27,463 nucleotides of DNA from a virus. A program made the position numbers and the translations under genes. Under the pieces are notes generated by a model. The model was not told the origin of the DNA and searched no databases. It saw only the letters and a list, made by a program, of their open reading frames with translations. The DNA lies in IMG/VR virus record IMGVR_UViG_3300043419_000081, positions 1 to 27,463 of that record; one strand, written 5' to 3'. Shown here one piece after another: positions 18,445 to 20,810 of the stretch. Position 1 is the stretch's first letter. Every line of letters starts with the position of its first letter.

Positions 18445-18928
18445 ATCATGGATCGTACTGGCTATGCTGGTGGTGGCTATCTCTGCCTACTTCTACGGAC
18501 ACAGGCAAGGACAGGCTGTCATACAGGCTGAGTGGCAAGCAGAGAAAGCAGAGGCTAATGCACAGGCTGCACTGGCTATTAAGAAAGCGCAGGACGCAGC
18601 TATAGCTACCGAGCGCAGACAGGCTGCACAGTTTAGAACTGTGGAGGCTAAGTTAATTGCAGACAATAGAAAGGTACAAGATGAAAAGAATGCTTTGCTT
18701 GATGGGTTTAGTAAGTCTGGTGGGTTGCGCCTCCCAAGCGCCAAGAGTTCAAACAATAGTAACGGACTGCCCGAAGCTACCGCCAGTGCCAGCGGCAATC
18801 AGCCAGAAACAATCTGCTACCTTCCTGAAGAATTTGTCAGAGATCTTGCAGCTGAAGCCGAGCGAGCAGACCAAATTGTCTACCAACTAACTGCCTGTCA
18901 AATGATACTAGAGGAAGAACGTAAATGA
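18437..18928 (+). CDS. Rz-like inner-membrane spanin subunit
   Basis: A 163-residue protein with an N-terminal membrane helix (WIVLAMLVVAISAYFYG, about residues 5-21) and a long helical, coiled-coil periplasmic domain rich in Ala, Gln, Lys and Glu. This is the layout of the i-spanin. The ATG at 18437 is chosen over an in-frame upstream start because it places the TM helix at the N-terminus and overlaps the holin stop by 8 bases, with GGAAGG just upstream. The Rz1 lipoprotein gene is entirely nested inside it in the +1 frame, which confirms the assignment. The stop overlaps the endolysin start (ATGA). Confidence 0.88.
   Translation: MPRSWIVLAMLVVAISAYFYGHRQGQAVIQAEWQAEKAEANAQAALAIKKAQDAAIATERRQAAQFRTVEAKLIADNRKVQDEKNALLDGFSKSGGLRLPSAKSSNNSNGLPEATASASGNQPETICYLPEEFVRDLAAEAERADQIVYQLTACQMILEEERK
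18681..18890 (+). CDS. Rz1-like outer-membrane spanin lipoprotein, embedded in Rz
   Basis: A 69-residue protein in the +1 frame, wholly inside the Rz-like gene. From the ATG at 18681 it has a basic n-region (MKRM), a short hydrophobic core and a lipobox (SLVGC) with the acylated Cys near residue 16. The mature part is short and Pro-rich (CPKLPPVPAAI), as in o-spanins. AAGG at 18671-18674 is well spaced. It pairs with Rz to fuse inner and outer membranes at lysis, so the host has an outer membrane. An in-frame start 24 bases upstream is less likely because it would spoil the signal peptide. Confidence 0.88.
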   Translation: MKRMLCLMGLVSLVGCASQAPRVQTIVTDCPKLPPVPAAISQKQSATFLKNLSEILQLKPSEQTKLSTN

Positions 18929-19353
18929 ATTTAAGCGAACACTTTACCCTTGATGAACTTACGCATACGGATCATCGTGAGTTTGATAACGTGCCGAATG
19001 AATCTGAACTGGCGAACCTTAAACGACTGGCTGCATTTCTGGAGACGGTTAAGTCTGCGGTAGGCGGCAAACCTATTATCGTAAACAGTGCATTCAGGTG
19101 TAAGGAAGTAAACGATGCCGTAGGTAGTTCGGATAAGAGTCAGCATCGGGTAGGATGTGCTGCTGATATTCGAGTCCCGCAAATGTCTCCTGATGAAGTT
19201 GTGAAAGCGATCATCGCAGCTGGTCTTCCATTTGATCAGGTCATACGAGAGTTTGACAGGTGGACTCATGTGTCTATTCCTAATACGGCTGATGCTAAAC
19301 CTCGTGGTCAGAAGTTGATCATAGATCGAGCTGGGACAAGACCATATGTTTAA
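18925..19353 (+). CDS. Endolysin, M15-family peptidase (peptidoglycan endopeptidase)
   Basis: A 142-residue protein of the Peptidase_M15_3 type (PF08291), a zinc D-Ala/L-Ala-D-Glu-cleaving muramyl peptidase. Seen: N-terminal HFTLDELTHTDHREFDN, VNSAFRCKEVNDAVGSS, the zinc motif SQHRVGCAADIR (H74, D81), and the third ligand H115 in RWTHVSI. It is full length and probably active. No signal peptide, so release depends on the holin. The last residues (AGTRPYV) are encoded at the point where an HNH gene has entered. A degraded second copy of this 3' end lies at 19861-19900 and codes for GTRPYA-stop, which is probably the older gene end. Confidence 0.93.
   Translation: MNLSEHFTLDELTHTDHREFDNVPNESELANLKRLAAFLETVKSAVGGKPIIVNSAFRCKEVNDAVGSSDKSQHRVGCAADIRVPQMSPDEVVKAIIAAGLPFDQVIREFDRWTHVSIPNTADAKPRGQKLIIDRAGTRPYV
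19312..19348. repeat. Left copy of duplicated endolysin 3' end
   Basis: This segment of the intact endolysin gene aligns with 19861-19895 at about 28 of 37 positions, with two one-base gaps. The core, 19331-19348 against 19878-19895, is 18 bases with two differences, both silent in the endolysin frame. The pair flanks the HNH gene as direct repeats 547 bases apart. Confidence 0.8.
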
Positions 19354-19841
19354 CCATTGTTAGAAAATTCACCGTGTATTTTTTTTCTTTCTTTAATTAT
19401 TTCTTGCTCTGCTTTTTTTATGTCATTAAAAAAACCAATTTGATATTCTTTATTATTAAAAAAAACTCTTGCTCTCCATTTGTTTTTTTGTTTGCACCAA
19501 TTAACTCCCTTAACTCCTGAAGTATTTGTTATATATTTTTTTGAGTTAAATCTATTTTGATTTATATTGCAATCTCTTAAATTTTCAATTCTATTGTCAA
19601 ATGTATTGCCATTAATGTGATCTATATAATCTGGGTTTGTTGCATTATGATAAATCCAGATTATTCTATGGACTCTATATATCTTATAGTTAATGCATAC
19701 TTGCCAATAATAATTAGATTTAGTGCCAGCAATTCCTCCTTTTATTTTCCTTCCTTTTGTTTCTTTCCAATATAAATTACCATTTGCATATGTAAATATA
19801 GATTTTAAATATTCTTGTGTAAAGATGTTATCTGTTCTCAT
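19350..19841 (-). CDS. HNH homing-type endonuclease with AP2 domain
   Basis: A 163-residue protein starting at M (19841), preferred because the longer frame (to 19898) runs through the endolysin repeat and adds an atypical Cys-rich start. Residues ~55-98 form an HNH_3-type nuclease domain: RVHRIIWIYHN (H58), YIDHINGN (D74-H75, N77) and DNRIENLRDCN. Residues ~108-160 form an AP2-like DNA-binding domain (SGVKGVNWCKQKNKWRA, then KIHGEFS). The gene is far more AT-rich than its neighbours and reads against the endolysin, signs of a selfish insertion. Its stop overlaps the endolysin stop. A TATAAT (-10-like, minus strand 19872-19867) lies 26 bases upstream; no -35 was seen. Confidence 0.9.
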   Translation of the reverse strand: MRTDNIFTQEYLKSIFTYANGNLYWKETKGRKIKGGIAGTKSNYYWQVCINYKIYRVHRIIWIYHNATNPDYIDHINGNTFDNRIENLRDCNINQNRFNSKKYITNTSGVKGVNWCKQKNKWRARVFFNNKEYQIGFFNDIKKAEQEIIKERKKIHGEFSNNG

Positions 19842-19860
19842 AAGTTTCTCGCTGGTAGAT

Positions 19861-19900
19861 AACTTAATTATACAACACTGGCACAAGACCATACGCATAG
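19861..19900. repeat. Right, degenerate copy of endolysin 3' end
   Basis: Reading plus, this remnant decodes as ...TGTRPYA-stop (stop TAG 19898-19900), the expected end of an M15 endolysin. Upstream of that, a two-base deletion relative to 19312-19330 breaks the frame, but AACTTAATTATA still matches AAGTTGATCATA mostly at first and second codon positions. It is best read as the old gene end displaced by the HNH insertion. Confidence 0.75.
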
Positions 19901-19909
19901 TCCTGTGCC
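19880..19909. terminator. Hairpin between convergent operons
   Basis: GGCACAAGAC (19880-19889) and GTCCTGTGCC (19900-19909) can pair over 10 positions with one mismatch around a 10-base loop. It overlaps the relic endolysin end and precedes the convergent stop at 19916. No T-tract on either side, so it is a weak candidate, possibly a bidirectional terminator. The left endolysin copy lacks the partner arm. Confidence 0.45.
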
Positions 19910-19915
19910 TGTGGT

Positions 19916-20650
19916 TTACTCTGCTACTGGCTCGACTTCTGGTTGGGCTGGTGGCATAGCAGCGCCAAGACTTTTCAGTCTATCAGCGTACTGCTTGCCA
20001 TGCCAAAGTTTACGTACAGGATCAAGCTTATCTAGCGTAGCTTGGTTAGCCTCTTTAAGTTCACGCAGTTTAGTCATACGCTCCCTGTGTGTATAGCTAG
20101 GCGACTTAGCTGTCTTCATGGCTGTGGAATTGTACTCGTCCTCCCACTCATCAGAAGTCGCAAAGCTTTTTGCCGGATCAGGTTTGTTCGGATACATGAG
20201 ATGCCATTCTCCACCAGTAACCACAGGCTCTGGCGCCACTACCACAGGCTTAATAGCATCCAGTGGATTGGATGACTCTTGATCCTTTGGTACGTCCTCA
20301 CCAGCGTAGATATATAGACCTATCCCATGCAAAGCTATAGCCTTGGCTAGGCAGCGCTGCATTGCTGTGTTTACTTGAAACGCATCAGGATTAGGCACTG
20401 CCTTATTTCTGTGATCCATTACTGGCAGCTGTGCTGTACGCTCCACACCAAAAGCTTTGACTGTACAGAAAACCATTACAGTATCATTCCAGCGCACTGG
20501 CTCTTTGTATTCCCATGTAGCAGCTGGATCATTGAGCAATAATGTATCTACTGCCCAAGCCCAAGACAGATACGACAGCCCCATTTTTTTTTCTACAATT
20601 CCAGACACATCTATTTTCCGTAGCTCTGAAAACTTACTGATCTCTGACAT
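19916..20650 (-). CDS. Single-strand annealing protein, Sak3/DUF1071 type
   Basis: A 244-residue protein matching the DUF1071 (PF06378) Sak3-type annealing proteins, which coat single-stranded DNA and promote strand annealing in phage recombination. Signature parts: LSYLSWAWAVD (about residues 25-35), the VRWNDTVMVF strand region, LPVMDHRNKAV and NTAMQRCLAKAIALHGIGLYIYAGED (about 90-125). The C-terminal ~115 residues are variable, charged and Pro-rich, ending in an acidic tail (QPEVEPVAE) that may contact a single-strand-binding protein. Two adjacent ATGs exist; GGGAGG is better spaced for the second (20650). It is the last gene of the minus operon, two genes downstream of its exonuclease partner. 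Confidence 0.88.
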   Translation of the reverse strand: MSEISKFSELRKIDVSGIVEKKMGLSYLSWAWAVDTLLLNDPAATWEYKEPVRWNDTVMVFCTVKAFGVERTAQLPVMDHRNKAVPNPDAFQVNTAMQRCLAKAIALHGIGLYIYAGEDVPKDQESSNPLDAIKPVVVAPEPVVTGGEWHLMYPNKPDPAKSFATSDEWEDEYNSTAMKTAKSPSYTHRERMTKLRELKEANQATLDKLDPVRKLWHGKQYADRLKSLGAAMPPAQPEVEPVAE

Positions 20651-20810
20651 CATGTCCTCCCATATATGCTTGAATAGTTGCAAGAGTTGCAGCCACAATA
20701 GCGTCCACTGCCAACAGAGATCTGTCTTCCAGCGGATAATCTATTGCTGCCTGTACAGCTTTGGCTGCCTCAAGTCTGGCTTTAATTAACGTGCCATCAT
20801 TTATATTCAC
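20634..20810 (-). CDS. Small helical protein between exonuclease and annealing-protein genes, GTG start
   Basis: A 58-residue frame starting GTG at 20810. The start overlaps the exonuclease stop as GTGA, with AAAGGAA about 7 bases upstream. The stop lies inside the annealing-protein gene (17-base overlap), so the three genes form a coupled chain. The protein is Ala-rich and helical: NINDGTLIKARLEAAKA, then YPLEDRSLLAVDAIVAA, ending GGHDVRDQ. No Cys cluster or membrane helix. I do not recognise a family. Its place inside a two-component recombinase operon suggests an accessory role, but this is inference only. Confidence 0.7.
   Translation of the reverse strand: MNINDGTLIKARLEAAKAVQAAIDYPLEDRSLLAVDAIVAATLATIQAYMGGHDVRDQ

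Follow-up and report, generated by a model that had tools for sequence, protein, structure and literature searches.

At the 3' end of the M15 endolysin gene of the window (the whole stretch of DNA analysed here, a 27,463-base IMG/VR virus record) lies an insert that is very probably a free-standing HNH-AP2 homing endonuclease gene, targeting this gene end and bringing a substitute for it. The comparison of sequences reveals an insertion, a foreign endolysin tail in use, the native tail displaced downstream as a relic, the same endolysin codons occupied at 13 loci, and HNH proteins that belong to one clade. The features of the region are collected in Table 1.

Table 1. Features at the endolysin 3' end of the window (coordinates in the window; strand as + or -).
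Feature	Position	Strand	Remarks
M15 endolysin	18925-19353	+	Pfam Peptidase_M15_3, E 1.2e-17
Native part of the endolysin	18925-19326	+	Up to codon GAT (Asp) just 5' of the insertion point
Replacement endolysin tail ('cap'), RAGTRPYV-stop	19327-19353	+	Foreign to the phage group of the window
HNH-AP2 homing endonuclease gene (predicted), 163 aa	19350-19841	-	HNH_3 domain; stop overlaps the endolysin stop
HNH leader and right element end	19842-19879	-	TATAAT at 19867-19872, minus strand
Relic, the displaced native tail GTRPYA-TAG	19880-19900	+	21/21 against the L007 tail; now untranslated
Hairpin between the convergent genes	19880-19909		Kept, but the outer pairs of the empty relatives are missing
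Sak-type single-strand annealing protein	19916-20698	-	SSAP_Sak, E 1.3e-39; start at 20650 or 20698

Loci containing both neighbours, the endolysin gene and the Sak gene, were gathered by a protein search of viral contigs. In 19 relative contigs (30 loci, 11 of the contigs having been fetched twice), the endolysin gene directly adjoins the Sak gene and no HNH match is found, the identity to the window being 86-97% for the endolysin and 86-98% for Sak. The endolysin of these empty relatives typically ends GAT AAG ACA GGC ACA AGA CCA TAC GCA TAG (or TAA), with 15 bases from its stop to the Sak stop, and the Sak gene, which holds the same position in all of them, is the native right-hand neighbour. 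In the tail alignment, the stretch before 19327 is the same in the window as in empty relatives, among them L006, L007 and L010; after the GAT codon (19326) the window abruptly departs from every relative, and it rejoins the empty-site sequence at GGC (19880), so that an insert of 553 bases replaces six (AAGACA) of the empty site. The original prediction was that the endolysin end of phages lacking the HNH gene would join directly to the relic sequence, with a stop at 19898-19900, 15 bases before that of the annealing protein; the junction is present in the 19 contigs and the position of the stop is exact. No HNH-less relative showed the opposite pattern, an endolysin that ends in GTRPYV at the left copy and is followed by unrelated DNA. 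Presence and absence of the gene are polymorphic at this precise site, as documented by the 19 empty relatives for the window and by further empty relatives for the L072, L171 and L169 loci.

The active endolysin of the window ends CGA GCT GGG ACA AGA CCA TAT GTT TAA, and the relic reads GGC ACA AGA CCA TAC GCA TAG. Over the last 21 nt the two agree at 16 positions, a match that 1000 random sequences of similar composition never reached; the tail repeat that had been described around an AT-rich minus-strand HNH gene with overlapping stops is real. As first delimited (19312-19348 and 19861-19895), it contained a true copy but reached too far to the left: the relic proper is 19880-19900, because the element itself ends on the right with 19861-19879 (AACTTAATTATACAACACT), where other elements share TTAATTATAC. 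The two-base deletion that had been read into the repeat is needless, arising as it does from the alignment of this element stretch to the endolysin. When the last 21 nt are compared with the tails of the empty relatives, the relic of the window matches at 21 of 21 positions and the active tail at 16 of 21 (five differences); the corresponding values for relic and active tail are 21 v 11 in L171, 19 v 13 in L169, 19 v 12 in L165 and 18 v 12 in L174. The silent right copy is thus the native one, which led us to reject both a target-site duplication and an internal duplication as the origin of the repeat.

These values also bear on three other explanations of the paired tails. One is that the endolysin tail was first duplicated in tandem and that the HNH gene, bringing no tail of its own, then entered between the two copies; this would explain why the gene is flanked by two related tail copies, but it has a very slim chance of being correct, since a copy under selection should look native afterwards, whereas in the window and in L171 it is the functional left copy that is divergent and the non-functional right one that is native, and since the stop of the cap is overlapped by the HNH stop in 13/13 loci. 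It is scarcely probable, too, that the left tail is native and that a relative supplied the right copy along with the HNH gene. HNH-less members of the window's own immediate lineage are absent from the collections, so that the earlier tail is not seen directly, which favours this explanation; against it, the endolysin body and the right flank match the same empty relatives, whose live tail is the relic, and the same holds for L171, both flanks of which are matched by the empty loci L308 and L320. A transposon-like insertion with target-site duplication would be in keeping with an AT-rich insert between direct repeats; we regard its probability as negligible, given that the relic rather than the live copy is native, that the copies are divergent, with a cap-relic DNA identity near chance in most loci, that the six target bases are missing, that the only protein is HNH and not a transposase, and that the element is always bounded by the same codons of a single gene.

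The content of the insert is consistent with the preferred reading of a homing endonuclease gene. The HNH protein of the window matches HNH_3 with an E-value of 2.9e-9 (36.8 bits against a curated cut-off of 24.8), and the D-H, N and N of this motif are invariant in nine aligned members. The AP2 match is weak (E 0.0051; 17.5 bits, below the Pfam cut-off of 33.3), as it is in all of the nine members scanned, the best of which reaches an E-value of 1.8e-4. The GC content of the HNH gene is 25%, against 45-47% in the neighbouring genes. Its dN/dS is 0.24-0.29 when compared with L072 and L165, and values of about 0.1-0.3 in most pairs of HNH genes indicate purifying selection, as would be the case if repeated transfer keeps the element active. 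The minus-strand TATAAT of the leader is read as the HNH gene's own putative -10 box. No Rfam match was obtained within 19200-20000 at E<=1, and the insert contains no known structured RNA and hence no known intron family. It is taken up by the HNH gene, which runs on the opposite strand, and the endolysin frame is open as far as its own stop with no need of splicing. An intron was rejected on the basis of the Rfam result and of the opposite strand. The insertion had also been said to move the endolysin away from the convergent hairpin, which is right, although the hairpin itself lost its outer pairs at the insertion point: its folding energy (+/- strand) is -16.6/-24.0 kcal/mol in the window and -20.1/-27.0 kcal/mol in L006.

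A 60% identical HNH gene occupies the same place in L072, a contig fetched as an endolysin relative. Searches with an alignment of this pair, and then of nine members, brought the number of distinct insertion loci to 13, the window included. Each of the 13 has an HNH gene facing an M15 endolysin gene tail-to-tail, with the two stops overlapping at the same -4 offset; a minus-strand TATAAT box lies directly at the right junction, and the remains of an endolysin tail are located 507-527 nt 3' of the endolysin stop. A foreign in-frame tail in use together with a displaced near-native tail is found in the window, L171, L169, L165 and L174; the relics of L072, L170, L246, L248 and L174 are decayed or deviating. 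In most loci the direct DNA similarity between cap and relic is weak and near chance, and the relic is therefore recognised by its frame, its position and the empty relatives. A general DNA-repeat screen over all HNH loci did not separate the endolysin-linked loci from the others, the divergence of most caps from their relics being too great. The proposal that an endonuclease arrived with a replacement 3' end, or that the left side was co-converted during repair, is supported and fits the 12 further loci, but a long co-conversion is needless in the window, since no more than about two codons separate the junction from the start of the foreign sequence. In L072, on the other hand, the divergence from its empty relatives already sets in some 45-60 nt 5' of the insertion point, which is what a co-conversion tract would produce. 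Found again in a dozen other phage lineages, the arrangement appears to represent a mobile gene family specialised for one spot, the endolysin end. In the L072 group (L072:5945-6439 and the relatives L018-L079), the endolysin gene and a convergent gene of 144 aa have overlapping stops, so that the insertion splits two overlapping gene ends simultaneously, both of which can still be read.

The insertion point is constant, between the Asp/Lys and the Gly-Thr of the motif IID-K-X-G-T-R. Whereas 125 of 143 empty genes have KxGT intact, none of the 13 filled genes does; this comparison was chosen after the data had been seen, and the 13 loci in it are related and not independent. Nine of the filled genes have Gly-Val, two Ser-Thr, and two (the window and L247) Gly-Thr with Arg in place of Lys. 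The relics are devoid of the left half of the motif, which was lost to the element end; as the cap alters the left motif, neither flank restores the presumed target. It can be hypothesised that the cap is a cut-resistant replacement tail conferring immunity on the filled allele. The altered codons alone are no proof of immunity, because natural GVR alleles, GVR being the commonest form of the cap, exist without HNH: in the whole viral collection, 61 of 72 M15-like genes with a GVR tail have no recognisable HNH gene downstream. With only the remaining 11 of 72 followed by one, the GVR tail was rejected as an exclusive mark of HNH insertion.

A tree of 92 HNH proteins unites the endolysin-linked members in one clade with a support of 0.999; L319 and L273, which fall within it though named as unlinked tips, are contigs of L174 and L169. 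On the endolysin-core tree, the presence of the HNH gene is scattered and implies at least 10 changes, and the right-hand gene neighbourhoods of the insertions differ among loci. This distribution leaves a slim chance for the view that the HNH nuclease has been domesticated as the endolysin's partner in a useful gene pair, with tail replacement as a by-product: purifying selection on the HNH frame and the tight joining of its stop to that of the endolysin would fit such a role, but the gene is absent from nearly all close relatives, is scattered over the endolysin tree and has different genes to its right. Proteins at least 60% identical to the HNH of the window or of L169 were not found among isolate phage records, nor was a close relative in bacterial genomes, where the one match, in genome contigs, had 32% identity. 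No direct donor of the window's cap emerged from a pattern search of viral contigs, and the HNH-AP2 neighbourhoods of Bas79 and Sf11 (GenBank) are not linked to an endolysin.

Several observations concern other genes of this kind. L384 (IMGVR_UViG_3300028569_000664) and L361 (IMGVR_UViG_3300021428_000026) belong to a second, divergent HNH-AP2-like clade, 38-39% identical, whose genes occupy this endolysin end as well, with the stops overlapping in the same way, and are accompanied by a DKLGVRPYA cap; a decayed relic is seemingly kept in L361 and seemingly lost in L384. The int-alpA RNA (Rfam RF02996) is found above its curated threshold in HNH leaders at L384:428-496 (+) and L178:3910-3976 (+), which places this RNA upstream of HNH homing-type genes. 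At L274:2395-3261 (-), a gene that is GIY-YIG-like by eye lies at the same endolysin 3' end and overlaps its last codons; the endolysin has a GAR tail without visible relic, and the gene may encode a homing enzyme of unrelated origin that has the same target. In L266, an HNH gene is located between two short copies coding for DGSAGVTFP, which may represent a further captured gene end, or no more than a motif that is repeated.

We propose that the enzyme would recognise DNA spanning the endolysin 3' codons around Lys-X-Gly-Thr-Arg, and would nick or cut the uninterrupted gene there. Repair would then copy into the cut gene the HNH gene together with the substitute tail, which overlaps the HNH stop codon, so that the lysis gene would stay whole while the old tail would be pushed downstream as a relic. 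The changes in the cap would protect the filled allele, the intact target then being nowhere present. Cutting, homing and immunity through the altered cap are all what we infer from the arrangement of these loci. A broader view, which we consider evenly balanced between right and wrong, is that a phage homing lineage has specialised on the last endolysin codons, spreading as an endonuclease with a cleavage-proof end, and that the L361/L384 clade, and possibly the L274 GIY-YIG gene, have converged on the same strategy.

HNH endonucleases are encoded in group I introns of lysin genes in Streptococcus thermophilus phages. The element described here is likewise an HNH endonuclease gene aimed at an endolysin gene, but differs from these introns in having no Rfam match, in the opposite strand of the HNH gene and in the absence of splicing. 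A parallel in behaviour is offered by the mORFs of fungal mitochondria, which replace gene 3' ends in Allomyces atp6 and in Glomus sp. atp6, atp9, cox2 and nad3: a foreign C-terminal coding end arrives with an endonuclease gene, and the displaced native end is nearly identical to that of relatives (PMC3630166). In both cases the endonuclease gene is located near a gene 3' end, a foreign in-frame tail is used and the native end is displaced downstream. The mORFs, however, are mitochondrial, encode LAGLIDADG or GIY-YIG enzymes and are in some cases in phase with the host gene (PMC3630166), whereas the window has an HNH-AP2 gene in a phage, on the opposite strand, with a tail of ~9 codons and a single target gene that has been re-invaded many times. 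The element works like an mORF and is not a member of that group, since its HNH protein is found in IMG/VR phage contigs and is not a mitochondrial LAGLIDADG or GIY-YIG enzyme. Free-standing HNH or HNH-AP2 homing endonucleases of phages include the T4 mob genes, the ICP1 IPA-HNH and the Xanthomonas phage HNN-AP2 genes, and are described mainly between genes (PMC2988022, PMC10448857, PMC2248197). They share with the present family an HNH_3-type domain, a gene of their own, an essential neighbour and a patchy distribution, and probably an AP2-like C-terminus. The spread of the Xanthomonas HNN-AP2 genes was judged to be sequence-independent (PMC2248197), whereas the endolysin-linked clade brings a substitute tail and has a single, precisely placed target within a coding sequence. 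On its sequences, this clade is best read as a predicted HNH-AP2 homing endonuclease lineage of phages dedicated to endolysin gene ends. No report of gene-tail replacement in phages was found in the open-access literature, subscription papers lying outside the search.

The arrangement shows how a selfish endonuclease with neither intron nor intein can occupy an essential coding sequence, the route being that the element carries the missing gene end, altered at the presumed cut site. It also accounts for small C-terminal changes in phage endolysins and is a warning for annotation, as differences at the tail end may be imported. The many natural pairs of filled and empty sites make the target site, self-immunity and tail replacement directly testable. 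If the broader view of a specialised homing lineage is true, an essential lysis gene can serve as a permanent homing site.
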